64,000 nt of DNA. It comes from Planctomycetales bacterium 10988. GTDB taxonomy: Bacteria > Planctomycetota > Planctomycetia > Pirellulales > Pb10988. The stretch spans positions 5,546,709 to 5,610,708 of the forward strand of contig CP043547.1 of assembly GCA_009664345.1 (NCBI GenBank), read 5' to 3'. Below are positions 6,015 through 46,774 of this stretch, piece by piece (the first letter of the stretch is position 1; each line of letters opens with the position of its first letter). Made by a program: the position numbers and the translations under genes. The notes under the pieces are model-generated. The model was not told where the DNA came from, did no database searches, and worked only from the letters and a program-made list of their open reading frames with translations.

Positions 6015-7520
6015 CTAGCGAATGTCCACATCGGGCAAGCTCGATTTAATGCCTTCATCGATGGGCATTTTTTTATAGGAGACATTGCCGGTTTCTTCAA
6101 TCAATCGATCGAGTTCACTTCGCAATTCTTTGACGACATGTTGAAATTTTGGGTCCTTAATCAAGTTGACCTTTTCGCCGGGATCATTCTTCAGATCGTA
6201 AAGTTCCGCAAGATGTTTATCGGGGCTGCCGTCCCCGTGCGGGTATCTCATATATTTCCAACGATCAGTCCGCACGCCACGAACATTCGGGGTATAAGGG
6301 AATTGCACCTCATAGTTGTATTCGTAATACCAAGCTTTACGCCACTTCTTCGATTTCCCTTTCAACAAAGGCACCCAAGACATGCCGTGTACCTTTTCGA
6401 AAGGTTCCGCACTCGCCAACTCCACAACACTCGGAGCCATATCAATATTGAGCACTTGCTCCTCGATGACCGTGCCGGGCTTGATGAGTTTCGGATAACG
6501 AACGATTTGCGGAACACGAATGCTCGGCTCATGCATCGCTCGTTTGTCGGACATTCCATGCTCACCGAGGAACATTCCATTATCGCCGGCGAAAATGAAG
6601 ACGGTGTTTTCCAGCTGTCCCAAGTCTTTCAACGTTTGATAAAGCCGACCGACGCTGTCATCCACCGAGCAGATCGTGGCGGAATAAGATTGCACAAAGC
6701 GATCGAAATCAACGACCGCGGCCGCGGAACGATCGGGATAATCTTTGCGAAAACCGTAAAGAGGCCCATAAATTCCATGCCAAGTATCAAGACGTTGCTC
6801 AATCCACTTCGGTTTTCCTTCCAAATGAAAAGCCGTTCGGGGGTATCCAATCGGAATCTCGGAATAAATGTCTTGGTATTTCGGTTCCGGGGTGAACGGC
6901 GTATGAGGGGCTTTATGCCCAAGAATCAGGAGAAAAGGTTGACCTTGATGATCTTCCTTTAACCAATTGATCGCCAGTTCCGTGACAACTTTGGTGTAAT
7001 ACCCCGGCACAACTTTACGATCCCCATCCACATTGAAGGTGGTGTCAAAATAATCCCCTTGCCCCTTATGCGTCACCCAGTAATCAAAACCAGGACGCTT
7101 ACTGTCGTCGGCTTCTCCCATATGCCATTTACCAATATAGGCCGTTTGATAACCGGCATCTTGCAGCTTTAAAGGAAAACTCGGTAGATCACGGGGATAA
7201 TCGGTAAAGTTATTCACCACCCCATGGGTATTTGCATAAACTCCGGACAAAAACGAGGCTCGACTCGGAGAACAGAGCGAAGTCGTCACAAACATGTTGT
7301 CAAAACGGGCCCCTTCTTCCGCCAATCGGTCAATATGCGGGGTTTTCAAAAAGGGATGGCCTGCACAACTGAGCTGATCCCACCGTTGATCATCCGTTAG
7401 CACGAAAACCACATTCGGCTTTTCAGCAGCCAAAAGTTGTGAAGTGAGAGCATTGCCCACCATCATCATTACACAGCTACTCCAAAGGAGTACACTTCGG
7501 GAAAAGTCCATTGGTTTCAT
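6015..7520 (-). CDS. Sulfatase, type I (formylglycine-dependent), secreted
   Basis: Arylsulfatase-family hydrolase of 501 residues with a signal peptide ending near [11 protein letters not shown]. It shows the metal-binding start [15 protein letters not shown], the catalytic motif C-S-P-S-R at Cys83 (to be oxidised to formylglycine), the GKWHMG signature, and the distal metal site [17 protein letters not shown]. The family cleaves sulfate esters from polysaccharides in the periplasm or at the surface; the substrate cannot be read from sequence. The length is typical. It lies head-to-head with a second sulfatase across a 272-bp gap and ends about 80 bp from the PhoD-like gene. Confidence 0.92.
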
Positions 7521-17381: not shown

Positions 17382-18326
17382 ATGAGCACGACCCTCAACG
17401 AAACCACCAGCACGGTAAGCATCACCCCTAGCGAACGGATGCAAGCGACGATGGCGGCTGCCCGCGTCCGGTTCACTTGGCTCGGCGTCCGCAAATCATT
17501 GAACACGCAGCAGAAGAAGCGGGCAGCTGATTCCTTCGGTGCCGAGGGGAGTTTTCTCTCGGCCAACAAGAAGCTGATCGATACTTCGCATCCGGCCTAC
17601 AAGGCGGTGACCGCGATCCGCAGCCGAGCGGTGCATTATTGGAAGAGCATTTCCTTGCCATTCCCCGAGCCGGGCCTTCGCCTGATTCGGCAAACTGCGA
17701 TCGATGAGTTCGATTACCGGATGTCGGAATATCGGGGCGACCTTGAGGAAGCGGTAGCGGAACTCGATCAACATTATGAAGAGTTGCGAAGTGCGGCACA
17801 GAGGCGTTTGGGCGAGCTTTTCAATTCGGCGGACTATCCTCCCTCCTTGATCGGGATGTTTGCCATTGAACACGACTATCCCTCGGTCGAGCCGCCAGCC
17901 TACTTGCGACAGCTGAATTCGGCATTGTATACGCAGGAATGTCAGCGAATGCAGTCACGATTCGAAGAAGCCGTTCAATTCGCGGAACAGGCCTTCATCG
18001 AAGAATTGTCGAAATTGGTGGAGCATCTGCACGAGCGATTGAGCGGGCAGGTCGATGGCAAGCCGAAGGTTTTTCGTGATTCAGCGGTAACGAACTTCAC
18101 CGAATTCTTCGATCGCTTCCGCAGTTTGAGCGTCAGGTCCAATGAGGAACTTGATGCCTTCGTCGCACAGGCCCAAAGCATTCTGCGAGGGGTACAACCG
18201 CATCAGCTGCGAGACAATGATTCTTTGCGTGATCGCATTGCCGGGCAATTGTCCGAAGTTCGCGGCTCGCTCGATGATCTGTTGGTTGATCGTCCTCGGC
18301 GAAACATTCTCCGCAAACCCCGCTAA
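17382..18326 (+). CDS. Conserved hypothetical protein (cluster copy 1)
   Basis: A 314-residue, mostly helical protein that I cannot assign to a named family. It is soluble, with no signal or TM segment, and has heptad-like stretches (EEAVAELDQHYEELRSAAQRRLGEL). The start follows CAGGAG. The paralogue at 52506-53456 is collinear with conserved cores FTWLGVRKSLNTQQKKRAADSFGAEG and SLDDLLVDRPRRNILRKPR. A small gene follows after 10 bp in both copies, so the group behaves as a conserved block. Confidence 0.75.
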   Translation: MSTTLNETTSTVSITPSERMQATMAAARVRFTWLGVRKSLNTQQKKRAADSFGAEGSFLSANKKLIDTSHPAYKAVTAIRSRAVHYWKSISLPFPEPGLRLIRQTAIDEFDYRMSEYRGDLEEAVAELDQHYEELRSAAQRRLGELFNSADYPPSLIGMFAIEHDYPSVEPPAYLRQLNSALYTQECQRMQSRFEEAVQFAEQAFIEELSKLVEHLHERLSGQVDGKPKVFRDSAVTNFTEFFDRFRSLSVRSNEELDAFVAQAQSILRGVQPHQLRDNDSLRDRIAGQLSEVRGSLDDLLVDRPRRNILRKPR

Positions 18327-27822: not shown

Positions 27823-28164
27823 GAGTTCGATTCTTGCCCCGAAGAAAGGATAGTATTGAGAGAAGGAGTGTCTGGATTAGCTGTTGAGTATACTCTAAAA
27901 CGACTAGTTGGTAAAGTGGATTCTTAACAGTCCTGAGTTAGTGTAGGTTAGAAAATATTTTCATAAGTCTATATTCGGAAAATATTTAGCGATGATCATA
28001 TCATTCTATTTACTCGACGCAGGCCAACCCCTGACAGGTCTTAGAACAGCACTCGCCGGGGAGTAAAGCAGGAACGCAACCATCGTAGAGCTGGTATAAT
28101 AGCTTTAGCCGTGGATCGCGCTTGCAGATTGCAGGGAACCATCTCTTTGAAAGAAGGAGCTTTC
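27823..28164. other. Divergent intergenic region
   Basis: AT-rich upstream half (27900-28010), which would carry the promoter of the adhesin gene on the minus strand and of the gene at 28165 on the plus strand. I see no ORF or RNA gene. GAAGGAG lies just before the ATG at 28165. Confidence 0.5.
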
Positions 28165-32273: not shown

Positions 32274-33506
32274 ATGGTCAGCGGCTCAGGTACATCCCGA
32301 CTTCGAAATGCCAGGGTTTCTCAGAGACGTGAGCGAAGGGAACAAACGTCTCCTCGGCGAAGATCTCCTTATACCGTGGAATCTCTCGATTCCTTCGAGC
32401 TGGAGCGATTCGCCGCTGCGGACAATCTTCACGTAGCCTATCAAACCTTGGAGCGTGAAGGGGGAGACGCCCCTGGAATCGATGGACTGCGCTTTGAGAA
32501 CCTCTCGCCGGGAGAGGTCTTTGGAATACTTCGCGCTACCTCGAAATGCCTCTTGAGGCAGACCTATCGGCCCCAAGAAACCCGCCTCGTCCAAATTCCC
32601 AAGGGAGATGGACGGTATCGCGAACTGCGATTGCAATGCTTGGCAGACCGTACGGTAGCCAAGGCGCTCCAACTTACCCTCAAACCTTATTGGCAAACAC
32701 GGCTTCCCCGACTTGGCCAAGACGTTTGGCAAATCTTCGCCCAGATGCAGCGCGTCATGCGAGAACGAGGGGCGTACATCCTGGCCATCGACGACATTCG
32801 CGACTGCTTCCCCAGCGCTCGGATCGAAGATGTCCTAGCATGCCACCGAGAACAGATGACCCAGCCGGACTTGCTCTGGCTGGTTGAACGACTTGTTCGG
32901 GGTTACGAAGGCCCTGATCGGACGACCGGACTGGACCAAGGCTCGCCCTTCAGTCCGCTCGCCATGGAGCTTCTGCTCCACCACCGCCTTGACCTCCCGT
33001 TAGAAACTCGAAGTCAAGGATACCCGCTACCCTTACGCTACGTCGATAATCTGACGTTCGTCTGTAGTAGCGAGCGTGAAGGCCATGAGACTCTTCAAAC
33101 AACGGGCTCCATTCTTTCTGGGATCGGACTCACCCTCAAAGGACAAGATGGAGAACCGCAAGACATTCGGGACCCTCAGTTCAACACAGCCGTCTTGGGG
33201 TTCATACCTCAATGGCAGAACGGACAGTTGACGTTTGGGATCCCTGAGTCTGCTTATGAAGACCTCGGACAAGGACTTTTTCATACGATCAATCACCCAC
33301 AGACGGCTAAGGTGGCTAACCGAGTCGTTGAAGGATGGATCGAAGCAAAAGGACCTGCTTTCACGAATCGCGCAGCACCCGAAGTGATTGACCGGATTCT
33401 TCATATTGGAAGAGAGTATGGATATCGATGTTTCTGTAAGAAGGGACTTCGTCGTACTGCATCCAAGGCGAGGAAGAGATGGATTGAGTTCTCTCAGCCT
33501 TCTTAA
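32274..33506 (+). CDS. Reverse transcriptase with YVDN active site
   Basis: A 410-residue RT. The motifs run in order: AYQTLEREGGDAPGIDGLRF (RT1), YRPQETRLVQIPKGDGRYRELRLQCLADRTVAKAL (RT2), YILAIDDIRDCFPSARI (motif A, catalytic Asp), GLDQGSPFSPLAMELLLHHRLD (motif B) and LPLRYVDNLTFVCSS (motif C, residues about 255-258), where the usual YxDD is YVDN. A basic C-terminus, CFCKKGLRRTASKARKRWIEF, may bind RNA. It is not fused to Cas1 and has no maturase/HNH tail, so it is not a complete group II intron protein. It follows a coupled ORF and lies about 410 bp from the CRISPR array. Candidates are a defence RT (DRT/UG type) or a CRISPR-linked RT. Confidence 0.85.
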   Translation: MVSGSGTSRLRNARVSQRRERREQTSPRRRSPYTVESLDSFELERFAAADNLHVAYQTLEREGGDAPGIDGLRFENLSPGEVFGILRATSKCLLRQTYRPQETRLVQIPKGDGRYRELRLQCLADRTVAKALQLTLKPYWQTRLPRLGQDVWQIFAQMQRVMRERGAYILAIDDIRDCFPSARIEDVLACHREQMTQPDLLWLVERLVRGYEGPDRTTGLDQGSPFSPLAMELLLHHRLDLPLETRSQGYPLPLRYVDNLTFVCSSEREGHETLQTTGSILSGIGLTLKGQDGEPQDIRDPQFNTAVLGFIPQWQNGQLTFGIPESAYEDLGQGLFHTINHPQTAKVANRVVEGWIEAKGPAFTNRAAPEVIDRILHIGREYGYRCFCKKGLRRTASKARKRWIEFSQPS

Positions 33507-33918: not shown

Positions 33919-36252
33919 GTGCTCAACGCCTGACGGCGTCATTGAATGAATCACGCGGTGGAATGATCGCCAGTGTTTGGCAGTAGAACGGGTGCTCAAC
34001 GCCTGACGGCGTCATTGAATGAATCACACCGGCATTCGTCCACAAATCGAAATGGGCAAGCAGTGCTCAACGCCTGACGGCGTCATTGAATGAATCACGC
34101 TGTGGAGGTGGAATCTCAAGGCCCCTGACAGAAGTGCTCAACGCCTGACGGCGTCATTGAATGAATCACTTCGCCGTTTCGCGGGACGATCACCCCGTTG
34201 ACTTTGGTAGTGCTCAACGCCTGACGGCGTCATTGAATGAATCACATTGCTTCCGTGAGGGTTTCTTTCTGAAACTTTAGGTGCTCAACGCCTGACGGCG
34301 TCATTGAATGAATCACGAAGAGTATCACAAAATCGCGGCTCCGATCGCGGAGTGCTCAACGCCTGACGGCGTCATTGAATGAATCACTGCTCGAGGGGTT
34401 GAAATCGCTCGCGACCAAAACAAGTGCTCAACGCCTGACGGCGTCATTGAATGAATCACCAAATTCACGATTCACCAAGGCTTCAATGCCATCGTGCTCA
34501 ACGCCTGACGGCGTCATTGAATGAATCACTCGTGATCCGACACCCCGTCTAGAGGGATCCGGAGGTGCTCAACGCCTGACGGCGTCATTGAATGAATCAC
34601 TCGGAAAACCCCAAAACTCGTGAAAAAAAATAGCGGTGCTCAACGCCTGACGGCGTCATTGAATGAATCACCTTGGCTTTCGTGAGGTCGACGCCCCAAG
34701 CATCTTGGTGCTCAACGCCTGACGGCGTCATTGAATGAATCACGAAGTCTTTCTTTGGTTCGATCAAGGATGGTATCACGTGCTCAACGCCTGACGGCGT
34801 CATTGAATGAATCACAGATTAGGGAAGTCGTAACCCGCGTCGCGAATGAGGTGCTCAACGCCTGACGGCGTCATTGAATGAATCACGCGTATATTCTTTC
34901 ACGTCGTTGATAAATCCAGGGAGTGCTCAACGCCTGACGGCGTCATTGAATGAATCACGCCCCGGCTCAAACGGTTCGGCATTGCTTGAGAAAAGTGCTC
35001 AACGCCTGACGGCGTCATTGAATGAATCACAGCAACCGGCAGAGTTCTCTGGCTTCTTCGTCAGACGGTGCTCAACGCCTGACGGCGTCATTGAATGAAT
35101 CACACTCAACCAGTTGTTTCCCGTATATCCGGAGAGGGGTGCTCAACGCCTGACGGCGTCATTGAATGAATCACAATGATGCGGGAGATAAAGAGGGCCT
35201 GGAGTACGCAGTGCTCAACGCCTGACGGCGTCATTGAATGAATCACTGCACTGGAGGCACTGGAAAGAGAGGGCAAAGCAATGTGCTCAACGCCTGACGG
35301 CGTCATTGAATGAATCACGAGGGTCGTTACTGATCGACGAACTGAGGCTTAGAGGCGTGCTCAACGCCTGACGGCGTCATTGAATGAATCACCTCGGGGC
35401 CATCCTGCGAGAGGCGACCAGTGAGAGGTGCTCAACGCCTGACGGCGTCATTGAATGAATCACAGATGCCGCAGGGATCGAGGCGACCAAATTACAAGTG
35501 CTCAACGCCTGACGGCGTCATTGAATGAATCACACAAGTGTTTGATTTCGAAGACCAACTCGTTCGAATGGTGCTCAACGCCTGACGGCGTCATTGAATG
35601 AATCACTTGTTGGCCTCGTAATAACCCATCTGCTTGTTGAGTGCTCAACGCCTGACGGCGTCATTGAATGAATCACTAAATTTGCGAACAGAATGCGGTT
35701 TTCCGCCTTCGGTGCTCAACGCCTGACGGCGTCATTGAATGAATCACACTCCTTGATAGTGAGGACGCAAACAAGGGTGTTGGTGTGCTCAACGCCTGAC
35801 GGCGTCATTGAATGAATCACTCGCAATCGCCTCGAAGCTTCTTCAAAATCTCCTCTGGTGCTCAACGCCTGACGGCGTCATTGAATGAATCACTCATTCT
35901 CTTTTTGTTTTCGAAGTTCCTGATTTTTGTGCTCAACGCCTGACGGCGTCATTGAATGAATCACACCCTTGTTGCGTGATTCCGACAGGTGGCGGGAAAA
36001 CGTGCTCAACGCCTGACGGCGTCATTGAATGAATCACACTTCCTCAGCCCGTTTTTTTGAGTTGGAAATAATGTGCTCAACGCCTGACGGCGTCATTGAA
36101 TGAATCACAATGAACATTTCAGAAATTGGGAGGGAGCTAAAAAGTGCTCAACGCCTGACGGCGTCATTGAATGAATCACATTTCGTCGATTTTCGTTTGG
36201 TTGAGAGTCATCATTTGTGCTCAACGCCTGACGGCGTCATTGAATGAATCAC
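33919..36252 (+). CRISPR. CRISPR array, 33 repeats and 32 spacers
   Basis: The 36-nt repeat starts GTGCTCAACGCCTGACGGCG and ends TCATTGAATGAATCAC. The ACGCC-TGAC-GGCGT hairpin inside is the likely Cas6 recognition site. By my count there are 33 copies with starts 70-76 bp apart, giving spacers of 34-40 nt. I see no mismatch in any copy and no duplicated spacer. Repeat length and stem fit the Cas6-containing type I operon that ends 280 bp to the right. If transcribed on the plus strand, as repeat orientation suggests, the array converges on the cas operon. Confidence 0.98.
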
Positions 36253-36535: not shown

Positions 36536-36835
36536 TTAGAGGATTTGGAAGGTGGGTGGAGGTTGTCCCCAATCACTTTGGTCACCAGAGGAGTGCGTTG
36601 GAACCTTTGCGGCACAGCCAGGACAGAGGGGAATGACCAGCAAATCATCCTCCGCTTCCATCAGTTTGTTCAGCTCCCAATGTAGCTTTTCCATCGCACG
36701 CGGATCAAGCCGACAACGGAAAACACTATATTGTATTCGTGTGCCATAGCCTTCCAAAGCTCGGGCCACCTTGCGGAGCCGCTTGGGATCGCGGACGTCA
36801 TACGTGATGAGATGCCAATGTTTTTCTGCCATCAT
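36536..36835 (-). CDS. cas2: CRISPR-associated endonuclease Cas2
   Basis: A 98-99 residue protein beginning M(M)AEKHWHLITYDVRDPKRLRKVARALEGYGTRIQYSVFRCRLDPRAMEKLHWEL, the classic Cas2 ferredoxin-fold start with the conserved Asp in YDVRD and the R-x-Q-YSVF strand. The frame runs upstream to 36928, but GGAGG lies just before ATGATG at 36835/36832, and the upstream part overlaps cas4-cas1. With Cas1 it forms the spacer integration complex. Last gene of the cas operon. Confidence 0.92.
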   Translation of the reverse strand: MMAEKHWHLITYDVRDPKRLRKVARALEGYGTRIQYSVFRCRLDPRAMEKLHWELNKLMEAEDDLLVIPLCPGCAAKVPTHSSGDQSDWGQPPPTFQIL

Positions 36836-36851
36836 TCGACCTCCGAGGGAG

Positions 36852-38561
36852 TTATCGCATTCGTAAACAGGCAAAATGACCGGGGCTGCCCGTCCATTCC
36901 TTTTCGAGTAGCCGAACCTCCAGTTCAATCATCCGGGCGTAGCTGAGGGATTGCCCGGTGTGGGGGTGTTGATGAGACTCTTCCAATCGTTGCTCGAAGA
37001 GCGTTAGTGCCTTCTTTCGTCCGGTTTCCGAAAGCCAGACATGACGAGGGCGGATGTCGAAATCGGTATCCGGATGCCATTGTCCTCGATTGAGAGACCC
37101 CATCAAAGGCATATCCCAGAGCGGCACTCGAAACAACTCCATAAGATCAAGAACAAGCGGTTGTGCTGCGGATCGAGGCCGATGGTAGAAGCCGAGCGAA
37201 GGTTCTAGCCCCACGGCGAGGATACTTCGCTGCACGGCCGATTGCAGAAGAGAATATCCATAGCCCAACAAACAATTGAAGCGGTCCTTCGGGGGGCGAC
37301 GGGTGCGGCCTGAGAAGTGTAAGGCTTCGTTGACTTGCCCGCCTAATAGATAAGGCAAGGCAGCGAAATAGGCCTTGGCCGAAATGCCTTCCAAGCCGCG
37401 TAACGTATCGGGTGAGCTGGCCCGATCGAGCTTGCCCAGGGATTCGCGGATCTGATCGATTCCCACTTGGCAAGAAGTCCGGGCTTCTGTATCGCCTCTG
37501 GTGCCTCGCATCAAGTATCGGAGTTGCGATTCGATTTTTCCCTGGACCAATCGACGAGCCAGTTGAAGACAAAGACTTTCGCTGGAAAGGGCCGAATATT
37601 GCCGCAGGCGTTGTTGAACACGACCGAAGGAGGCGGTTGTGCTGGCCGCGTATTTTCCGCCAGCGGTCAGCCACTGGACGCCGATTCCATGATAGGCACA
37701 GAGGTGAATCGCTTGGGTGGTTATCTGGGCATGTCCGTGGAGGATGACCGAATCGAGCATCCTGGCGGGAACCTTTTGCTTTTGCCCATCCTCAAGGCGA
37801 ACCACCAGCGTATCGCCACTGCGGGAGACTTGCGATCGGGGAGAAACGACATGCAAAGTTTGGCCTTCTCGATTGGAAGGAAAGAAAGTCGGCGCGGAGT
37901 CGGCCTTTCCTTCTTCGAGTCGTTCTTCCTCGGGCAAGCAAACCACATTTAACGAGCAACGGCCACAGACCTTTTCATTCTCATGCACCGGAGGTCGTTC
38001 GGTAGATCGCCGCAGGGAGCGAGCGCGATGGATCGCTTGGCGAAGTTCTTCCTTGGCCTCGTCGTCCACTTCGATAAAAGCGGTGACGCGATCCGCATGA
38101 TAGCGAACCCTGGCTTGAGGGACCGGCTGACCTAATTCCTCCTCAAGTAAGACGGCATACGCAATCGCTTGAAGCCGGTCACTCGGCCAGGCAAGCGGTT
38201 CTTTCTTCGGCCCCCTGCGACATCTGCCGCGTTTATGTTCGTAAACGACCCAAGCCGAATCGCGACGGCGAAAGGCATCGAGCTTTCCAAAGATGCCCCA
38301 CTGATTGCTAGCCAGCTCGAAACTTCGCAGCTCCGGCGTGTCATCGTCTTGGGTTAAGAGGTCGTCGTGCAATCGCCGCCCGGCGTAAACTGCGGCATCG
38401 GCCACGCGGATTTCTTCGACTTCTTCCAGATAAAAAAGTCGTTCACAATACGACAAGGCATGTAAGGCCATCACCCGCACGAGCGGTTCATCCTCGGAGG
38501 GATGGCTTTCGGTCTTCGATGCTGTCGTTCTCAATTCACTTGCGGAGGGATCCATTGCCAA
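36852..38561 (-). CDS. cas4-cas1: Cas4-Cas1 fusion protein
   Basis: A 569-residue fusion. Residues ~25-215 are Cas4: SYCERLFYLEEVE with Cys39, GKLDAFRRRD and YEHKRG (RecB-type nuclease residues), then the iron-sulfur cluster cysteines CGRCSLNVVC. Residues ~230-569 are Cas1: TLHVVSPRSQVSRSGDTLVV, VILHGHAQITTQAIHLCAYHGIGVQWL, FNCLLGYGYSLLQSAVQRSILAVGLEPSLGFYH and PLVLDLMELFR, giving the Glu/His/Asp metal site. Fusions of this kind occur in type I-G (formerly I-U) and in the MYXAN/Dev type I loci. Cas4 would choose PAM-proximal prespacers for integration by Cas1-Cas2. The start overlaps the end of cas5 by 31 bp. Confidence 0.93.
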   Translation of the reverse strand: MAMDPSASELRTTASKTESHPSEDEPLVRVMALHALSYCERLFYLEEVEEIRVADAAVYAGRRLHDDLLTQDDDTPELRSFELASNQWGIFGKLDAFRRRDSAWVVYEHKRGRCRRGPKKEPLAWPSDRLQAIAYAVLLEEELGQPVPQARVRYHADRVTAFIEVDDEAKEELRQAIHRARSLRRSTERPPVHENEKVCGRCSLNVVCLPEEERLEEGKADSAPTFFPSNREGQTLHVVSPRSQVSRSGDTLVVRLEDGQKQKVPARMLDSVILHGHAQITTQAIHLCAYHGIGVQWLTAGGKYAASTTASFGRVQQRLRQYSALSSESLCLQLARRLVQGKIESQLRYLMRGTRGDTEARTSCQVGIDQIRESLGKLDRASSPDTLRGLEGISAKAYFAALPYLLGGQVNEALHFSGRTRRPPKDRFNCLLGYGYSLLQSAVQRSILAVGLEPSLGFYHRPRSAAQPLVLDLMELFRVPLWDMPLMGSLNRGQWHPDTDFDIRPRHVWLSETGRKKALTLFEQRLEESHQHPHTGQSLSYARMIELEVRLLEKEWTGSPGHFACLRMR

Positions 38562-39259
38562 GCCTCCTTGGGGATGGTGGAAGAAATTTCACTCGTCGGT
38601 GCGAAGAGATCGGATTTCGTTTTGGTCATATCTTGACGGTCGATCCAAGTTGTCAGCCGCGTGGTCGTTGGGACTTGCTCGGAGTCGGAATTCTCCTTCA
38701 CAAGCTGATACCAACGACAACCGGGTATCTTGGAAGGGTCTCGTTCTGCAAGACGATCAATCAAGAAAGCGTTGTCGCCGACAAAAGGCAAACCATACCG
38801 CTGGTCGTTGAATGCTCCTGCCAGCCCCTGCCGGATTCGCGTTTCCAGTTCATCATTCCCATCCATACAAACAACCACGTGGAGGTTTGAAAGAAACTCT
38901 CGTCGGACCGGGGAAATATTGTTCTTCGAGCCTTTCGTCCACTCCGCAGGAACGCCTGCATCTTTTCCAACCGGATAGTTATGAAGTTGTTGAAAGATGG
39001 TCTGAACCTGCGGGGCAGGTGATGCTTCCGGGATGCCGATGGCCAGACGAACTTGCGGAAGATCAGGCCGGGTGAGTGAGGAAGGGATTCTTCCCGGATG
39101 GCTTTTCTCTTCCTCTCGGAGCCTTGTTTCAACGCAAGCAACATTCAACAACAGGCCATAAGCCGCAGAGTGGGTTAGCATCGTCGCCGTGGGACGATAC
39201 CAACCTGCTGCCATTGGACGGCAAGCGGCGAACGGGGCCTTAAGTTCCAAAATCAACAT
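38531..39259 (-). CDS. cas5: Cascade subunit Cas5 (DevS/Cmx5-like)
   Basis: A 242-residue protein between cas7 and cas4-cas1. It begins MLILELKAPFAACRPMAAGWYRPTATMLTHSAAYGLLLNVACVE, the Cas5 N-terminal RAMP pattern (PxAxxRxxxxxxxxxTxxxPxxxAxxGLL). Cas5 caps the 5' handle of crRNA in Cascade. Length and gene order match DevS of the Myxococcus dev locus. It starts 3 bp after the cas7 stop. Confidence 0.85.
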   Translation of the reverse strand: MLILELKAPFAACRPMAAGWYRPTATMLTHSAAYGLLLNVACVETRLREEEKSHPGRIPSSLTRPDLPQVRLAIGIPEASPAPQVQTIFQQLHNYPVGKDAGVPAEWTKGSKNNISPVRREFLSNLHVVVCMDGNDELETRIRQGLAGAFNDQRYGLPFVGDNAFLIDRLAERDPSKIPGCRWYQLVKENSDSEQVPTTTRLTTWIDRQDMTKTKSDLFAPTSEISSTIPKEAWQWIPPQVN

Positions 39260-39262
39260 GGC

Positions 39263-40219
39263 TCACTCTCCCAAGGCTTTTTGGCTCACCAGCGAAATCA
39301 AACGTTGCGGATTGCGATCGAGCGTGACGCCTCGTTCCGTCAGTGCTGTTTGGAGTGATTCGTCCATCTCTTTGACGATTCTTCCGCCGAGGTAAAATTC
39401 TTGCGGAGGATAATCTGGAGGATCAATCAAAAGACCTTCGATCAACTCGGGAAACTCGTATTCCCCCGATTTCTCTTTCTTGGGTTTGAACCCATAGGTT
39501 TCGTAGCCGGCAACCAGCGAATCCGTGAGCCGAATGACAATACTCGCTGGTGCAAATTCGAAGTAACTTCGGGCGTGGTTTCCTGACACTCCGTTCAGTT
39601 CCCCAATCGCTTGCAGTAACTTCCGCGTCCAGTCATGCGGGGCCTTTCCGCAATCATTCAAGTTCAGTGCGAAGGGATATTGAAAAGCAGTGACCACGGT
39701 TTCTCGATGGAGCAAGGCCGACTCGGTTCCCCCTTGTTTATCGCCCGCTTGCCAGGGATTATCGCTCGCTAGTTTTGGCGATTGTGTGAACACCGTGCTA
39801 TACCGATACGGTTCCAAGGCCTTGGCCAAGTTCATGCGAAGCACCGAATCACGCTTCAACGGAAAGTCTTTGCCTCGCTCCTTGCGAAGTTGCTCTAACT
39901 GTTTGCCTTTGACCGCGAGGAGATAGCCAAAGAAAAAATCATCAGCGAACTCTTGGGGATTGGGGTATTCGCTGAATCGCACCATGAGTTGTTGCTTTTC
40001 CCCTTCGCCGGTTTTCGGTTCGAGTCGCTCCCGATTCGTGGGCAATCCATACCCTGTGAGAACCTCCCGCAAGGCGTTTCGCATCGCCTCAGGGGAGATG
40101 ATCGGGTAATCAAATCTTCCATCGGTCACCTTCTGGATGACCGTGCGATTCAATTCACTTTCGCCTCGGTAATTCGCGGAAGGGGCAGGATACGTAAGGA
40201 CCGTTCCAAATAGATTCAT
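39263..40219 (-). CDS. cas7: Cascade backbone Cas7 (DevR-like)
   Basis: A 318-residue protein starting MNLFGTVLTYPAPSANYRGESELNRTVIQKVTDGRFDYPIISPEAMRNALREVL, the Cas7/Cst2/DevR pattern in which the RGESExN and P-x-I-S-x-EAxRxALR stretches are typical. Six or so copies of this RRM-fold protein line the crRNA spacer in Cascade. GGAGAAAC precedes the ATG. It lies between cas8 and cas5 as in the dev operon. Confidence 0.9.
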   Translation of the reverse strand: MNLFGTVLTYPAPSANYRGESELNRTVIQKVTDGRFDYPIISPEAMRNALREVLTGYGLPTNRERLEPKTGEGEKQQLMVRFSEYPNPQEFADDFFFGYLLAVKGKQLEQLRKERGKDFPLKRDSVLRMNLAKALEPYRYSTVFTQSPKLASDNPWQAGDKQGGTESALLHRETVVTAFQYPFALNLNDCGKAPHDWTRKLLQAIGELNGVSGNHARSYFEFAPASIVIRLTDSLVAGYETYGFKPKKEKSGEYEFPELIEGLLIDPPDYPPQEFYLGGRIVKEMDESLQTALTERGVTLDRNPQRLISLVSQKALGE

Positions 40220-40270
40220 CGTGTTTCTCCAGAAGTTGAGTTTGAAAAGGTTAAAGGTTTGAAACTGCGA

Positions 40271-40660
40271 CTAGGAATTCGCCGAGAGTGCCAAGAGGGT
40301 CAGAATACGGACTTGGTCGGGCTTGGTGAGGATCGCCTGGGTGATCGCTAAGAAGTCTTCATCCTTGTTGATTCGTTGCTTGACGGAACCAAAACAAAAC
40401 GCGAAGTAGTCCGCAAATTCATCCCCATGTCGGGAACGAACCTCTAGGAACGTTTTCTCGGCAACATGCTCTTGTTCTTCCTTGAAGGGCTTCGGCACAT
40501 CGATCCATACTTTCTTTGTTTTCTCATCCTGAATTTTCTTATCCTTAAAGGAATCCCATGGAATCCCACAACGGTCCTCAGCCTTCAGTCGTACATAATC
40601 ACGCACCATTCGTAAGACGATCAATGCGAGATGATCTTCGGAATTCGGTTCCTTTGTCAT
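40271..40660 (-). CDS. cas11: Probable Cas11 small subunit from internal start in cas8
   Basis: Inside cas8, GAAGGAG is followed nine bases later by ATG (40660), in frame, yielding a 129-residue helical protein MTKEPNSEDHLALIVLRMVRDYVRLKAED and onward. The site follows a low-complexity linker (SNLPNPSKEKTT), as expected at a domain border. Known type I-B, I-C and I-D systems make Cas11 from just such internal starts. No separate cas11 gene exists in this operon. Confidence 0.65.
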   Translation of the reverse strand: MTKEPNSEDHLALIVLRMVRDYVRLKAEDRCGIPWDSFKDKKIQDEKTKKVWIDVPKPFKEEQEHVAEKTFLEVRSRHGDEFADYFAFCFGSVKQRINKDEDFLAITQAILTKPDQVRILTLLALSANS

Positions 40661-41989
40661 GGTTGTTTTCTCCTTCGAGGGATTAGGAAGGTTAGATTTC
40701 AAGGCTTTAAATTTTCGATTGACATCGGCAGGAAAGTTCCTCATCAAAGGAGGTGTTTGATTCCCGATACGAATGAAGAACTCATGCGGAAATTGTTCGA
40801 ATAATTCCGCGAAATAGGCATACCACTGAGGCTCTGCCGGATCGAGCAATGCCTTGAGAAGCGAGGCCCGAAAGACTGGGTTTTTATAGGTTTCTTGGAT
40901 CTGTTGATACTTGATCAATAGGTTTCTATTGGGAGTAATGCGGCCGGATCCCAATGATTTCACATTGTTGCCAAGCTTGAGTAAATGCTGATACTCAACA
41001 GCATTGAAAAGCCCACGGATAATTCCGTGTTCATATCCCAGCTTTTTGTTCACCAATGCCGCAAGGTTGGACAAAAATTCGAGCGCCGACTGGGCAGGGA
41101 GTTCGATGCAGGCAGCTTTGGGCCGAAATTTCTTCATCTCCTTTTGATCGCCAAGGTTTTGCAACAGATCAGGAAATTCTTCGCAAAACATTTCGAGATC
41201 GCAAATCTCAGGAATCGCCAAGGAATATCCTACGGGCTGATCATCACTCCGCTTCGGATCGGAGTAATTGACATCCAACAGCCACGGGACATATATCAAA
41301 GAAGTCAACGGCCAAAAGTGGAGGAGTAAAATCTGATCGACACGATCCTCGAAAGGCACTTGCTCCGCGTTAATATCTTGTGCACCCAGAAGCAAGGCAC
41401 TGGAAACCGAGATCGTGCGGAACTTTCCTTTTTTGAGTTGCTTCTCCCACTTAATCATCTCCTTCCAGAACTTGCCCCCTTCGCTGCAAGGCTCGTCATT
41501 GGCACGTTCGTTAAACGGACGACGCGTGGTGGGCTTGGCGCGTGGAATTTGAAAGAGCATGTCCCGCCACAGCTTTTGCCAAAGCTCATTGTCCAGATAC
41601 GTAGTTAAGAAGGGATTGATAGGATTGACGACGTTGTAGACAAAAAGCTTCGATTTCTTCTTCTTGCCGGTTTTGGGATCATCCTTCTCTTCAACCTCCT
41701 CTCGAAGCGGCTTGGCTCCCGGCCATTTACTCTTGACCTTGGTTTCAACTATTTTCGCAGTATAAAGTTCATCGAATAGCCGCTGGCAGGATTTCTCGGT
41801 CAGGGTGATCGAAACCGAGTCGGTCGTTACGTCGTGAAGTTCGGGCACTTCCTCTTCAGGAATTTCCTGCTTCTGCATGTGTTGCACCTGGAGCACGAGT
41901 CCCGCGAGGCCGGCCTTATGCTGGGCGGTGGGGAGTTCACTCAGTCGGTAGCTCAGGGTTATACAATCAAGGGCGCTTGCTTTGGACAT
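40271..41989 (-). CDS. cas8: Cascade large subunit Cas8, MYXAN type (Cmx8-like)
   Basis: A 572-residue protein in the cas8 slot between cas3 and cas7. The N-terminus LDCITLSYRLSELPTAQHKAGLAGLVLQVQ and YNVVNPINPFLTTYLDNELWQKLWRDM, together with the long helical C-terminus, recall the type I-MYXAN Cmx8 family; this is recognition by eye. It would read the PAM and open the target for Cas3. It starts inside the end of cas3 (31-bp overlap). An internal ATG at 40660 with a near-perfect Shine-Dalgarno probably makes a separate small subunit. Confidence 0.75.
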   Translation of the reverse strand: MSKASALDCITLSYRLSELPTAQHKAGLAGLVLQVQHMQKQEIPEEEVPELHDVTTDSVSITLTEKSCQRLFDELYTAKIVETKVKSKWPGAKPLREEVEEKDDPKTGKKKKSKLFVYNVVNPINPFLTTYLDNELWQKLWRDMLFQIPRAKPTTRRPFNERANDEPCSEGGKFWKEMIKWEKQLKKGKFRTISVSSALLLGAQDINAEQVPFEDRVDQILLLHFWPLTSLIYVPWLLDVNYSDPKRSDDQPVGYSLAIPEICDLEMFCEEFPDLLQNLGDQKEMKKFRPKAACIELPAQSALEFLSNLAALVNKKLGYEHGIIRGLFNAVEYQHLLKLGNNVKSLGSGRITPNRNLLIKYQQIQETYKNPVFRASLLKALLDPAEPQWYAYFAELFEQFPHEFFIRIGNQTPPLMRNFPADVNRKFKALKSNLPNPSKEKTTMTKEPNSEDHLALIVLRMVRDYVRLKAEDRCGIPWDSFKDKKIQDEKTKKVWIDVPKPFKEEQEHVAEKTFLEVRSRHGDEFADYFAFCFGSVKQRINKDEDFLAITQAILTKPDQVRILTLLALSANS

Positions 41990-44355
41990 GGTGGGTCAGT
42001 ACCTCCGGAAATTGGTTCGTCACAGAATCCCAAATGGGGTAAATAATGCGTGGAAGGAGCGACGGCAAGATAGTTGGGTAGCCTCGACGGTGCAGGAATA
42101 CGAAGACGTTGTGCGACCGGGACGACATACCCATCAATGGGCTGCTTCGAATCACAGAGCCGTTGCACGTAAGCTAAATCCGAATCCAAAATCGAGGGCA
42201 AGGTAAAGGCCTCGATATCGCGAAAGACCTCGACTCCGGAAGCCGCAAACGGGCCACTTCCTAGAAACTGGCACTCCTGCTTCATTTTTTCCGTAGGCTG
42301 CGGACAATTTCGGAGAGCAGTTTCCAGGTCTGACTGCCGGACAAACTCTCCGGTGGCAATCTCTTCTAGGAAATGGCTTACGCCAGTGAGGTCCTTCTCT
42401 TCGTAGGGTTTCTCACTGTCAGGCGTGTAGACATAGACTTCGCCGGCACTCTCGCGCGGCTGACCTGCTCGATTGCAGCGTCCCATCCTCTGAATTAGAG
42501 AAGTGGTCGGAGCAACTTCGGTGATTAAAACGTCAGCATCCAGGTCAAGGCCCATCTCACAAACCTGGGTCGTTACTGCGAGGACAGCGTGTTGTTCATT
42601 TGATTGAAAGGCAGTGATGACTTCCTGATGCCGCTCTTTTCGGTCACACAAACGATAGCGGCTATGGTAGCAGTAAAGAGGGACGCCATCGCTCGTTCGA
42701 AGCCCTGCGGTTGCCAGCCCGTCCTCGGCAAACTCCCGAGCCACCTGCTGAGCACGAGCCACGGTATTGACCACCCAGAGGACCTTCTTCCTTTCCGCTA
42801 ATTTTTGTTTGACAAGCTGATCAACGTCTTCCCTCAGAACCTGCTTGATCTTGTAGCGAGGGGCATCCCGCACCGCCTTCATGTCAGGAAAGTTCTCCTG
42901 ATAAACATCAAAGATATCGAGGCCCAACTCCTTCAACCGCCGTTGTCGTGCCTCGGGGAGGGTCGCCGTCATGCAGAGCACCGGGACATCAAACTTCTTT
43001 AAAAAGTCCGTCAGTCCCTGAAACATGGACTCGTCAAAACTATGCACTTCATCGACGACGACCACTGCATCCGCCAGGACCGGCAACAAGCAAACACTGG
43101 AATAGCTGTACTGAAGGAAAGCGAGGAACTGATCGACAGTCGCCGAAAAATAGTGTTTCGACCAATAGCCCAATGCAAAAAGGCGTTTTTCGGTTTCGTA
43201 GCGATTAGGATGACGAGTATCCTCGGGGTTCTCAAAAAGGCCTTCGAGCTCGTATTCGGCGGAACCATGCAGCATGGCCGCTTCTGTCTCCGGTGCCCAA
43301 GAGACATAATCACGAAACCCCTCGGTGGCCGTCGCTCGCGTTGGATAAAGAAAGAGACAATGCCGCACCCCTTCGTTCGCCTGTTGGGCGATCCATCTCC
43401 AAGCCGCCAAAGTCTTCCCACTTCCACAAGGAGCAAGAAGCAAAGCCCGTGAAGGAAGCTCCGCCGTTTGATCTTGAAACTCACTCCATGCGAACTCTAT
43501 ATTCTTTGCTTTGAGGCGAGACTCAAGTTGAGCTATTCGAGGCTCGATGATCTTCTGGTTCACGGATACCTTTGTGCAGAGTCCATCCGTTTCCGCAAAG
43601 GTCTGTATGATCCAATCGGTGACTTTCTTTCCTTCGCGAGGCAGACCGGAACCGGCGGCATCCGCTACGATCAACGCCGCTCTCACCGCCCACAAAAGTC
43701 GACTTTGCTCAAGATCCTTCTTAAGCAGTCTTCTATACTTAACGAGGCGATTTTCAAGCTTGATCATCTCATCTGGCAGTATCATCTGACCTTCACTTGA
43801 GGATTCAAGAATATTCCACAACTGTGGAAGCTCTTTTGGCAGTCCGCAGAGGCCGATCTCATTTCCGATGAATGAAAGAAACGGCTGCAAATCGGGATGA
43901 TTACTGCAAAAAACAACATGATTCTGATCGCTCTTAAAATATTTCCAACACATTGGGTCGAACTTGAGGTGATGACCGAGTACCGCGGAGAGGACCAATT
44001 CCCAATCAAGGTCACCTTTCTGCTCCAGCCATTTCCGCATCGGCCCATAATTCATCAGCACGCCGCTGAAATGTTCATGGCGGAGCAACTGGCCGTCCTG
44101 GCTACCTTGCACGGCCTTTTGAAAATCTTCATTGGCCTTACCGAGATCGTGCAGGACAACCGCCGCCGTGAGGGTGTGGTAAAAAGCACGTTCGTCTTGA
44201 ACTCGAAAGAAAGCCAACCAGCGTCGCCCTAATCGGGTAGGTTCCGTTTCAGTCCCGAAAAGTGCGCGGGCAGCCTCCAACACGTCTTGCGTATGGGCCA
44301 GCAACGTCTTCGGTTTTGCTCCTTTTCGAGGAGATTTCGCCAGCAAAGAACTCAT
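41959..44355 (-). CDS. cas3: Cas3 HD nuclease-helicase
   Basis: A 798-residue two-domain enzyme. The HD nuclease part has LAHTQDVLEAAR, LHDLGKANEDF (His69-Asp70) and LGHHLKFD. The SF2 helicase part has LLLAPCGSGKTLAAW (Walker A, near 306), VVVVDEVHSFDESM (DEVH box, near 430), CMTATLP, and VTTQVCEMGLDLDADVLITEVAPTTSLIQRMGRCNRAGQ (motifs V-VI). Recruited by target-bound Cascade, it unwinds and degrades DNA 3' to 5'. All key residues are intact. It overlaps cas6 by 4 bp (ATGA) and cas8 by 31 bp. Confidence 0.95.
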   Translation of the reverse strand: MSSLLAKSPRKGAKPKTLLAHTQDVLEAARALFGTETEPTRLGRRWLAFFRVQDERAFYHTLTAAVVLHDLGKANEDFQKAVQGSQDGQLLRHEHFSGVLMNYGPMRKWLEQKGDLDWELVLSAVLGHHLKFDPMCWKYFKSDQNHVVFCSNHPDLQPFLSFIGNEIGLCGLPKELPQLWNILESSSEGQMILPDEMIKLENRLVKYRRLLKKDLEQSRLLWAVRAALIVADAAGSGLPREGKKVTDWIIQTFAETDGLCTKVSVNQKIIEPRIAQLESRLKAKNIEFAWSEFQDQTAELPSRALLLAPCGSGKTLAAWRWIAQQANEGVRHCLFLYPTRATATEGFRDYVSWAPETEAAMLHGSAEYELEGLFENPEDTRHPNRYETEKRLFALGYWSKHYFSATVDQFLAFLQYSYSSVCLLPVLADAVVVVDEVHSFDESMFQGLTDFLKKFDVPVLCMTATLPEARQRRLKELGLDIFDVYQENFPDMKAVRDAPRYKIKQVLREDVDQLVKQKLAERKKVLWVVNTVARAQQVAREFAEDGLATAGLRTSDGVPLYCYHSRYRLCDRKERHQEVITAFQSNEQHAVLAVTTQVCEMGLDLDADVLITEVAPTTSLIQRMGRCNRAGQPRESAGEVYVYTPDSEKPYEEKDLTGVSHFLEEIATGEFVRQSDLETALRNCPQPTEKMKQECQFLGSGPFAASGVEVFRDIEAFTLPSILDSDLAYVQRLCDSKQPIDGYVVPVAQRLRIPAPSRLPNYLAVAPSTHYLPHLGFCDEPISGGTDPPCPKQAPLIV

Positions 44356-45002
44356 GAAAGGCTCCTAGGCTTCAAAGGGACAAAGATTCCGCAACCCATA
44401 TGCCGCCGACCTCCAAGGCCGGACTCTTGAATCACCAAGGACTCTTCCGCAGTCAGCCCTTCGAGAACTAACTCATACCCGACAACCACTCGACGCCTGA
44501 TCCTCAGTGTTCTTCGTTTCCCGATGGTGATCTGCACTTGCTCTGAAACATTCAAACCTTCCAATTGGCGACGCACGGCCTGAGTAAACAACTCCGGGGA
44601 GATCTCGTTGGCTGTCGGGGCATCCTTGATCTTGATGGTCACCAAACGGCTCCTTAAGGCAGGCAGAGGGCTGAGCCGTTCGATGCTGGGAGGACCGACC
44701 GCCAGCATTGTCTCTCCTACCTGAAGCGTCTTCCCCGTCACTTCAAGGACTTCCGAAACACGTCCATCTGGAACGCGAAATCGTAAGCGACTATGCGGCA
44801 ATAGCTCCAATTTGCGAGGCCCCGCACTTTTTCCCGAGATCGGATGGACGCCCATCTCCGACTCCCGATGAAGTTCTGGCAGTACCCGCGATAGGGCCGA
44901 ATACAACAGATATCCATGATCCGCCGGAAGCGGTCCATCCGCCCCAAGGGCAAAGTTCAAATCAAGGTAATTCATCTCGATGATTCCTGGTCTAATTTTC
45001 AA
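44352..45002 (-). CDS. cas6: Cas6 crRNA endonuclease (Cmx6-like)
   Basis: A 216-residue RAMP protein: DLNFALGADGPLPADHGYLLYSALSRVLPELH at the N-terminus and the C-terminal Gly-rich loop GLGGRRHMGCGIFVPL, the hallmark of Cas6. It processes the array transcript at the ACGCC/GGCGT hairpin and probably stays on the crRNA. Position and size agree with the MYXAN-type Cas6. It starts inside the last codons of the sigma-like gene (11-bp overlap), so translation is likely coupled. Confidence 0.85.
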   Translation of the reverse strand: MKIRPGIIEMNYLDLNFALGADGPLPADHGYLLYSALSRVLPELHRESEMGVHPISGKSAGPRKLELLPHSRLRFRVPDGRVSEVLEVTGKTLQVGETMLAVGPPSIERLSPLPALRSRLVTIKIKDAPTANEISPELFTQAVRRQLEGLNVSEQVQITIGKRRTLRIRRRVVVGYELVLEGLTAEESLVIQESGLGGRRHMGCGIFVPLKPRSLS

Positions 45003-45471
45003 GTAACTGCTTAAGGTGTTTCTTGGCTTCTTGAAGCCTTCGGCTTACAGTACTGGTAGAGATATTTAAGTTGGAAGCAATTTCTTTTAGTGTCTTTCCT
45101 GACACTTTCTCCCGTAAAATAATCTGGTGTTGAGATGGGAGTTCCTGTAGGTCTTCCTCTAATGAATTAGGCTCATTGTCTAATCCTTGTGGGGAAGAGG
45201 AGACCCATAGAGCTTTAGAATTTAAGAGATCTTCCTCCGAAATATTAACAGACCGAGAGTGCCTAAAAACATGCTTAAAAAGGGCTGGTACAAGAAAATG
45301 CTTGCATGAATAGTTGATGATTCTTTTGACCTCTTCTTTGTCCTCTGCACGATATATATAGAGGGAAGACTTTTGACCGAGAAATAGCTGGATATAGAGG
45401 ATATTTACCAATTCATTGGTATCGAAAGACTTTAGGATTTCTCTCTTTGACCTCATACATCCGTTTGTCAC
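44992..45471 (-). CDS. Sigma-70 region-4-like regulator, first gene of cas operon
   Basis: A 159-residue protein. The C-terminus EEDLQELPSQHQIILREKVSGKTLKEIASNLNISTSTVSRRLQEAKKHLKQLLE is a textbook sigma region 4. The N-terminal NELVNILYIQLFLGQKSSLYIYRAEDKEEVKRIINYSCKHFLVP is weaker and may be a region-2 remnant. It overlaps cas6 by 11 bp, so it is part of the cas transcript. The GTG start at 45471 or ATG at 45456 are both possible. It is more AT-rich than the cas genes. A sigma-like gene fused into a cas operon would allow positive autoregulation; this is inference. Confidence 0.75.
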   Translation of the reverse strand: MTNGCMRSKREILKSFDTNELVNILYIQLFLGQKSSLYIYRAEDKEEVKRIINYSCKHFLVPALFKHVFRHSRSVNISEEDLLNSKALWVSSSPQGLDNEPNSLEEDLQELPSQHQIILREKVSGKTLKEIASNLNISTSTVSRRLQEAKKHLKQLLEN

Positions 45472-45655
45472 GAATAGTTTGAGCGCCTCAACAACTTCAG
45501 CTTTTCTTTGGGAGGATCATTGCATCTTTAACTCTCTTCTAGTTATAGTAGGATAAGAAGTTACTAAACGTCTTACTTACATCATAGACAATTTATTACA
45601 TTATATGCCACCCTTTTTGGGTTTTACTAGATTTTACATTTCCTAATTTCTCTAA
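45472..45655 (-). promoter_or_regulatory. Probable promoter region of the cas operon
   Basis: A 184-bp AT-rich gap upstream of the sigma-like first gene and downstream of the crRNA-like element. No ORF of note is visible. It is the natural target zone for repression by WYL or by a Cascade-guided regulatory RNA. I could not define -35/-10 boxes with confidence. Confidence 0.5.
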
Positions 45656-45740
45656 GGATGCCATGCGGCGTTGAGCAAATGTTCGTAAGTCGTTGTTCGA
45701 AAACGATCTAAAGTTTTATTCGTTGATGCCGTCAGGCGAT
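45656..45740 (-). ncRNA. Solitary degenerate CRISPR unit (psiR1-psiS-psiR2), CreR/CreA-like
   Basis: On the minus strand, 45738-45711 reads CGCCTGACGGCATCAACGAA and then TAAAACTT, matching positions 9-34 of the array repeat at 21 of 26 bases. After a 32-34 nt spacer-like stretch (TAGATCGTTTTCGAACAACG...), 45677-45657 reads TGCTCAACGCCGCATGGCAT, matching repeat positions 2-22 at 17 of 21. Both halves keep the Cas6-type stem (GCC/GGC). Unit period 68, against 70-76 in the array. It sits between the WYL gene and the cas operon, 10 kb from the array. Known CreR/CreA RNAs have exactly this partial repeat-spacer-partial repeat design. Confidence 0.65.
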
Positions 45741-45742
45741 TT

Positions 45743-46774
45743 TTATTTGACCGAAGCATGTTCTAAATAGAGCTGAATCAAGCGATTTAGCTCCTCCAGC
45801 ACCTCTTCCCTTAAATCTTCGGGTTCCAGAACAATGGCGTCCGGCCCAAAGCTCTGCACCCAACTCTTGAGTTCTTCGAAGGAAGCAAGGTTGAAATCAA
45901 CCACGAGGCTACCATCCTCCTGCGAATAGAACTGCTGAGTGGAATGCCATCGATGCTCCCGCACATATTGCACAACTGGAGGTAAAAACTTCACCCTCGC
46001 CCGGCGAATCGGCCCACCATCCAAAAAGATCCCAAAGGCGTGCTCCAGGTAATGTTGAAGGTCAAACTTCTGGGGAGAAGAATAACGTTGCGTCTGCACC
46101 TCCACCCTGCGGATGCGATTTACTTTGTAATGACGGATTTGCTCGTGCTCTGGTGCAAATGCGATTAAATAGAGAGCCTGCCGATGCGAAACGAGCCCGT
46201 AAGGATGCACCTCATAGTCAGTAGTCTCGGCGGCTTTCGCGGAACGATAGAGAATCTTCGTTGCTTTTCGATCCTCAATCCCGATCATCAAAAGATCGAT
46301 CGTTTCCGCTTGCTGAGAGTAATCGGAGTGCCCAATGGATGTACAATGTAAGGCAACTGCCATCTTCTCCAGGTACCGGAGTGCTTCGTCCCCTAAACCC
46401 GTCCGAATTTTTTGGAAGGCTTTTTGCGAAGCTTCCCAGAAAATGGTCCCAGCCAGCGGCTCCAAGAATCGACGGCCCAGGTAGAGCGCAGCCACTTCTT
46501 CTAAAGTAAAGCCCAAAGGGGCGATCTTCTCGTTCATCAGGATCTGCCATCGTTTACGACCATGTTCCTCGACACACTCTTCCAACAGAAATCCCACGTC
46601 CTGGAGCGTCGTCAGGTCTCTACGAACGGTCTTTTGAGAAACTCCCAACTGCTCCGAAAGCTCCTTCAGAGAAACACCTAGCTGTTGACGGCTTAAGAGC
46701 CGGATCAAATTCCACTGACGTCGCAAAGGTTGAGAGTCTGACATATCCTGATTTTCCCTTTCAGAAGCTTTCAC
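45743..46774 (-). CDS. WYL-domain transcriptional regulator of the cas operon
   Basis: A 343-residue regulator. The N-terminal winged HTH (RQQLGVSLKELSEQLGVSQKTVRRDLTTLQDVGFLLEE) is followed by the WYL domain (RKATKILYRSAKAAETTDYEVHPYGLVSHRQALYLIAFAPEHEQIRHYKVNRIRRVEV) and a WCX-like C-terminus (RRARVKFLPPVVQYVREHRWH). WYL proteins commonly control CRISPR-Cas and other defence loci, sensing a nucleic-acid or nucleotide ligand. Start at GTG 46774, or ATG 46744 (MSDSQPLRRQW). The stop codon abuts the psi-repeat element, so read-through from this gene would transcribe it. Confidence 0.85.
   Translation of the reverse strand: MKASERENQDMSDSQPLRRQWNLIRLLSRQQLGVSLKELSEQLGVSQKTVRRDLTTLQDVGFLLEECVEEHGRKRWQILMNEKIAPLGFTLEEVAALYLGRRFLEPLAGTIFWEASQKAFQKIRTGLGDEALRYLEKMAVALHCTSIGHSDYSQQAETIDLLMIGIEDRKATKILYRSAKAAETTDYEVHPYGLVSHRQALYLIAFAPEHEQIRHYKVNRIRRVEVQTQRYSSPQKFDLQHYLEHAFGIFLDGGPIRRARVKFLPPVVQYVREHRWHSTQQFYSQEDGSLVVDFNLASFEELKSWVQSFGPDAIVLEPEDLREEVLEELNRLIQLYLEHASVK

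Follow-up and report, generated by a model that had tools for sequence, protein, structure and literature searches.

Results

The cas locus and its neighbourhood

The window analysed here is a stretch of 64,000 nucleotides from Planctomycetales bacterium 10988, whose 6.65-Mb genome (class Planctomycetia) is assembled as a single contig. Its minus strand carries a complete type I-B MYXAN operon, in the order sigma-70 region-4-like ORF, cas6, cas3, cmx8, cas7, cas5, cas4/1 and cas2, followed by the CRISPR array. The genes from cas6 to cas2 occupy 36536-45002 (TIGR02807, TIGR04413, TIGR02586, TIGR03983, TIGR01573), and the TIGR04413 match reaches 497.6 bits against a cut-off of 150. All the marks of the Cmx8 group are present (Cmx8, Cmx5, Cmx6 and a Cas4-Cas1 fusion), and the window holds a complete Cascade gene set. 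The array (33919-36252, minus strand) comprises 33 identical 36-nt repeats, which read GTGATTCATTCAATGACGCCGTCAGGCGTTGAGCAC in transcript orientation; a cut 3' of the repeat hairpin would give the 8-nt handle UUGAGCAC. A gene for a group II intron-like reverse transcriptase (32274-33506, plus strand) adjoins the far end of the array.

The putative first gene of the operon is the sigma-70 region-4-like ORF (44992-45471, minus strand; PF08281, E 5.8e-9), which overlaps cas6 by 11 bp and possibly encodes a dedicated cas regulator. Across a 271-bp gap lies a gene for a WYL-domain regulator (45743-46774, minus strand; PF13280, E 9.9e-18); a WYL gene stands ahead of cas6 in several further Cmx8 loci as well. 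The element studied here, psi, lies inside this gap, so that its direct neighbour on the cas side is the sigma-70 region-4-like ORF, with cas6 only beyond.

A degenerate repeat pair with non-random decay

The original prediction described psi as two degenerate half-repeats in the same orientation around 32-34 nt. Our analysis bears this out: psiR1 (45643-45678) and psiR2 (45711-45746) lie on the plus strand, start 68 bp apart and enclose 32 nt. They match the array repeat at 24/36 and 23/36 positions respectively and are the two best ungapped repeat matches outside the array on both strands of the whole window, the next reaching 20/36. The partial identities first reported were too high, since, with stem and handle fixing the register, psiR1 agrees with repeat positions 9-34 at 19/26 rather than 21/26, and psiR2 with positions 2-22 at 15/21 rather than 17/21. 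A paired score, which combines the 3' part of the first repeat with the 5' part of the second in imitation of a creA gene, gives 36 for psi, compared with 30 for the best of 60 simulated 62-kb windows. Rfam recognises the array repeats weakly in the window and does not recognise psi, and a BLAST search of the psi region against plasmids gave no match.

Both half-repeats keep the stem, as had been claimed. The hairpin of psiR1 (GAUGCC-AUGC-GGCGUU, 45657-45672, plus strand) has a 6-bp stem and a 4-nt loop, as in the true repeat, and its 5' handle UUGAGCAA (45671-45678, plus strand) matches the true handle at 7/8 positions. Between this handle and psiR2 sits the 32-nt guide psiS (45679-45710, plus strand), ATGTTCGTAAGTCGTTGTTCGAAAACGATCTA. 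In psiR2, which overlaps the WYL stop codon, the stem-loop is kept (45725-45738, plus strand; 13/14) and the last 8 nt are lost (2/8). The decay of the repeats is therefore non-random: psiR1 spares hairpin and handle, while psiR2 spares the hairpin and loses the handle. Haloarchaeal creA genes likewise retain the handle in psiR1 and lose it in psiR2 (PMC9458426), and psi has the two divergent repeats, with the handle in the first, of a creA gene; its repeat remnants beside cas are equally those of a CreR-type crRNA-like gene. Both psi repeats contain GATGCC, as do most of the relatives' arrays, where the local array reads GACGCC. The element is directed away from the cas operon, opposite to the cyanobacterial psi elements described below.

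A PAM-flanked seed match upstream of the cas operon

Only 5-base seed matches in the local promoters had been noted in the original prediction. Our search for a partial protospacer near these promoters returns a considerably longer match, in the gap upstream of the cas operon and 61 bp upstream of the psiR1 start. The predicted protospacer (non-target strand, minus strand 45551-45582) is the best seed match in the window, and reads 5'-tATG and then ATGTaaGTAAGaCGTT from 45582 down to 45551. The first 16 nt of the guide agree with it at 13/16 positions, with mismatches at 5, 6 and 12; two other sites in the window scan reach 12/16. In a type I R-loop the bases at positions 6 and 12 are flipped out, and in CreA these positions are unconstrained (PMC8501985); once they are disregarded the match is 13/14. 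Beyond position 16 the match is 2/16, so that a full R-loop is not expected. The perfect seed of creA at positions 1-5 and 7-11, all ten of which are essential in Haloarcula hubeiense (PMC8501985), is not found here: the window has 9/10, with the mismatch at position 5. An inner-seed mismatch also occurs in 4/7 of the other targeted elements, usually with a match that extends to 16-17.

The predicted PAM, 5'-ATG-3' (45583-45585, minus strand), gives with the protospacer a CreR-like target site at 45551-45585. The Cascade of Synechocystis PCC 6714 (8ip0/8h67), whose large subunit is a homologue of the window's Cmx8 (E 6e-62), prefers 5'-AYG and obeys 5+1 base flipping (PMC11096372). The recurring ATG/ACG flank in relatives was recognised without prior knowledge of the published AYG PAM. 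Since this PAM comes from biochemical measurement on a homologous Cascade and the target conforms to it, the prediction has a basis in independent data. An independent PAM was also sought by comparing all array spacers with phages, and no match was found.

The match is unique in the genome. The sequence ATGTNNGTAAGNCGTT occurs twice in the whole genome, in psi and in the target, and the search for AYG plus the guide seed suggested in the original prediction finds a single occurrence in 6.65 Mb, at the target. For comparison, 591 real spacers were taken from 17 Cmx8 arrays, and none scores equally well within 500 bp of psi. No second target was found in the WYL promoter or in the rest of the genome. 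One longer guide match, 23/32 at 27957-27988 (plus strand), precedes a 396-aa ORF by about 120 bp; it lacks an AYG PAM and is mismatched at seed position 3, and was therefore dropped as a target.

Inspection of both strands of the gap revealed no convincing promoter. A weak plus-strand promoter, CTTACA-N17-CATTAT, overlaps the target, and TTTACT-N15-TAATTT at 45623-45649, outside the target, is the likelier promoter of psi. Target and psiR1 are only about 60 bp apart. The one small ORF between them (45605-45646) encodes 13 aa and has neither a ribosome-binding site nor a rare-codon run; described CreT toxins have a start codon, a ribosome-binding site and rare codons (PMC8501985). No protein gene lies between target and psi in the window, while RNA toxins are not recognisable by sequence.

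psi elements in other Cmx8 loci

We gathered Cmx8 loci from GTDB genomes and plasmids, where a single-sequence query found no relatives in genome contigs and an alignment query succeeded, and examined 32 loci for psi-repeats. Eight carry a further element: a second Planctomycetales locus (L070), Thiohalocapsa (L081; 6804-6910, plus strand), Thiosymbion (L085), Gemmata (L087), Thiocapsa roseopersicina (L093), Synechocystis PCC 6714 plasmid pSYLB (L094), Cylindrospermopsis (L095) and Nostoc CENA543 (L096). Most Cmx8 loci show no psi, among them L067, the closest locus that has this region; in 21 other loci none was seen upstream of cas6. In all further elements except that of Thiohalocapsa (7/8) an AYG-flanked target lies nearby, the flank being ATG in six and ACG in one. 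In the window, L070, Thiosymbion, Gemmata and Thiocapsa, the target surpasses any other AYG site in the sequence by 2-5 positions. The elements of Cylindrospermopsis and Nostoc have weaker repeats, a pair score at background and, in the register used, spacers of 44 and 19 nt; the main grounds for these two calls are that the handle is intact, psiR2 can be recognised and the seed matches perfectly (10/10). The Thiohalocapsa pair has an intact 3' part of psiR1 and no AYG target. Its guide weakly resembles the adjoining AAA-ATPase_like gene; this weak match, at 6344 inside that gene and flanked by TAT, was left out of the count.

When 884 handle-like sites in 29 loci were scanned blind, the five elements whose targets were known at that time came back, together with two artefacts (array DNA and a self-match). 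As the random-seed control gave 0.5%, a few chance hits are expected, and the strength of the scan lies in its agreement with repeat pairs that were identified independently. Among eight elements, position 6 is mismatched in seven, position 12 in six and position 18 in all eight, and no mismatch falls on 1-4, 7, 10 or 11. Positions 6 and 12 were disregarded in the search, so their counts show freedom rather than selection; positions 17 and 18, which were unscored, match in 6/8 and 0/8 elements.

Some further features of these loci were observed. In L070, Thiosymbion, Gemmata and Thiocapsa all mismatches within positions 1-18 fall at multiples of three (6, 9, 12, 15, 18), which are the flipped bases and the centres of the 5-nt segments, and may weaken the R-loop without harm to the seed; the window and the cyanobacteria deviate from this. 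Lone ectopic repeats occur about 200-300 bp past the array end in Thiosymbion (18159-18194, plus strand, 27/36) and in locus L088 (18195-18230, plus strand, 24/36). At the place of the sigma-70 ORF, L070 has an ORF of similar size that looks unrelated and shows no BLASTP similarity to it.

Co-variation and the position of the targets

The guides of the two Chromatiaceae loci, Thiosymbion and Thiocapsa, are homologous and differ at 10/24 positions. At five of these (2, 4, 13, 16 and 19) the target has changed along with the guide, and at 6, 12 and 18 it has not. This is evidence for selection on guide-target pairing, in these relatives rather than in the window.

The targets occupy different places. 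In L070 the target adjoins the ribosome-binding site of the gene that opens the cas operon, in Cylindrospermopsis it overlaps the -35 element of TTGACA-N17-TATCTT about 200 bp ahead of cas6, and in Nostoc it lies just 5' of TTGACT-N17-CATAAT. With respect to cas, the target of the window has the same orientation as those of the three cyanobacteria. In the window, as in Thiosymbion, Gemmata and Thiocapsa, the target is on the strand opposite to psi and immediately upstream of it. Between target and psi, Thiosymbion and Thiocapsa have a small ORF of about 77-90 codons, and the target there probably belongs to a toxin-like gene. These ORFs (4990-5223 and about 6336-6608, both plus strand), possibly homologous and with hydrophobic C-termini, match no KilA-N, other Pfam or PADLOC family over cut-off, and we regard them as candidate CRISPR-controlled toxins. 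On pSYLB, a HicB/HicA toxin-antitoxin pair (6178-6980) is located between the psi target and cas6.

Discussion

The decay pattern of the repeats, the unique PAM-flanked target and the presence of psi and comparable targets in seven other Cmx8 loci support the original view of a CreR/CreA-type element in a MYXAN locus. Two of the findings named there as refuting this view, a lack of psi-repeats among relatives and a lack of any partial protospacer near a local promoter, are thus contradicted by the sequences. Since the guide matches the region at the start of cas beside the correct PAM, the psi RNA most likely lets the CRISPR system lower its own production, and we consider it probable that psi specifies an RNA of the CreR type that enables Cascade to repress its own cas operon. 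We infer that psi is transcribed, processed, bound and repressive, with cas rather than a toxin RNA as the regulated product.

In the mechanism we propose, the degenerate two-repeat mini-CRISPR would yield a crRNA-like RNA, which Cas6 would cleave at both conserved hairpins to leave the handle UUGAGCAA, the 32-nt guide and a 3' tag derived from psiR2. This RNA would enter the locus's own Cmx8-type Cascade and guide it to 45551-45585. The ATG PAM and a match over the PAM-proximal 16 nt or so, with positions 6 and 12 unpaired, would allow an incomplete R-loop, which would keep the cas operon from being transcribed while falling short of the complete R-loop needed for Cas3 recruitment. The outcome would be negative feedback on cas expression, lifted, as in the CreR mechanism, when array crRNAs or anti-CRISPR proteins draw Cascade off.

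A CreTA-type addiction module would assign the same parts differently, with the target as the promoter of a tiny toxic RNA, creT, which would be transcribed towards psi on the plus strand, starting near 45605, and with psi as the creA antitoxin guide. We regard this as unlikely. It fits the Chromatiaceae-like and Gemmata-like placement of the target, the small ORF of Thiosymbion and Thiocapsa and the weak plus-strand promoter over the target, and it stays alive because no good promoter is recognised on either strand. The short distance from target to psiR1 and the 13-aa ORF, unlike CreT in its missing signals, argue against it. With no small protein gene in the window and the features of CreT absent, autorepression of cas is the better reading.

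That psi controls itself only, through a target in the promoter of its own precursor and with cas unaffected, is very improbable: a promoter that drives psi might extend over the target, and autorepression of creTA is documented (PMC8501985), but the likelier psi promoter lies outside the target, and in L070 and Cylindrospermopsis the target is located at cas. Hardly more credible, and if anything slightly less so, is a functionless remnant of a dead array. The repeats are degenerate and the element is absent from many related loci, whereas decay has spared precisely the hairpin and the handle, a PAM-flanked seed target unique in the genome lies 61 bp off, and the same design is found again in other phyla. 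Least probable of all is that the shared sequence marks two copies of an operator, bound by WYL or another DNA-binding regulator, in place of guide and target. Psi and target do form a partly matching inverted pair within one intergenic region; however, their match begins exactly at nucleotide 1 past the handle and is PAM-flanked, and relatives follow the same rule with unrelated sequences, the two Chromatiaceae loci co-varying at five paired positions.

Autorepression of cas has a precedent in CreR, the CRISPR-Cas autorepressor RNAs of type I and V-A systems (Liu et al. 2023, Cell Host Microbe), and judged by its sequence features psi would belong among them. In the account of CreR given by a review (PMC12737573), the two have in common a crRNA-like gene beside cas, without a protein toxin, whose guide matches the region upstream of the cas operon. 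As far as that account describes CreR, psi differs in belonging to the Cmx8/MYXAN branch of type I-B, in pointing away from cas beside a WYL gene, and in a longer seed match with one inner mismatch. With CreA of the CreTA modules of Haloarcula hispanica, H. hubeiense and Acinetobacter I-F (PMC8501985, PMC9458426, PMC10097628), psi shares the two divergent degenerate repeats with the handle in psiR1 and not psiR2, and a PAM-flanked seed match that is partial and leaves positions 6 and 12 unconstrained. Unlike CreA, it has no recognisable creT, an AYG rather than a TTC PAM, and a retained Cas6 hairpin. In CrePA a protein toxin is controlled by CreA (PMC12737573); likewise, a small ORF separates target and psi in Thiosymbion and Thiocapsa, in contrast to the window, which has no ORF of such size.

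The closest experimental counterpart is the MYXAN Cascade of Synechocystis PCC 6714 (8ip0, 8h67; PMC11096372), which shares with the window a homologous Cmx8, the AYG PAM and a 36-nt repeat ending in GGCGTTGAGCAC. Its plasmid pSYLB carries psi with an ATG-flanked target between WYL and cas6; in contrast to the window, psi there is on the cas strand and hicBA separates target and cas6. Since production in E. coli and a solved structure have been achieved for this host's Cascade (PMC11096372), the idea is directly testable.

More tentatively, the Cmx8 psi may be a recurrent regulatory guide locus, found mostly at the WYL-cas6 junction, whose target depends on the lineage and for which autoregulation and addiction are interchangeable states. 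The target would be the cas region in the window, L070 and Cylindrospermopsis, a small ORF in Chromatiaceae, and hicBA together with cas in Synechocystis PCC 6714. If this is true, the small uncharacterised Chromatiaceae ORF would represent a new class of CRISPR-controlled toxin. In applications of Cmx8 systems, an overlooked guide of this kind would be a competitor for Cascade and would couple cas expression to the supply of crRNA. Psi would bring RNA-guided control by Cascade to the MYXAN/Cmx8 branch of type I-B, for which none is described in the literature searched.
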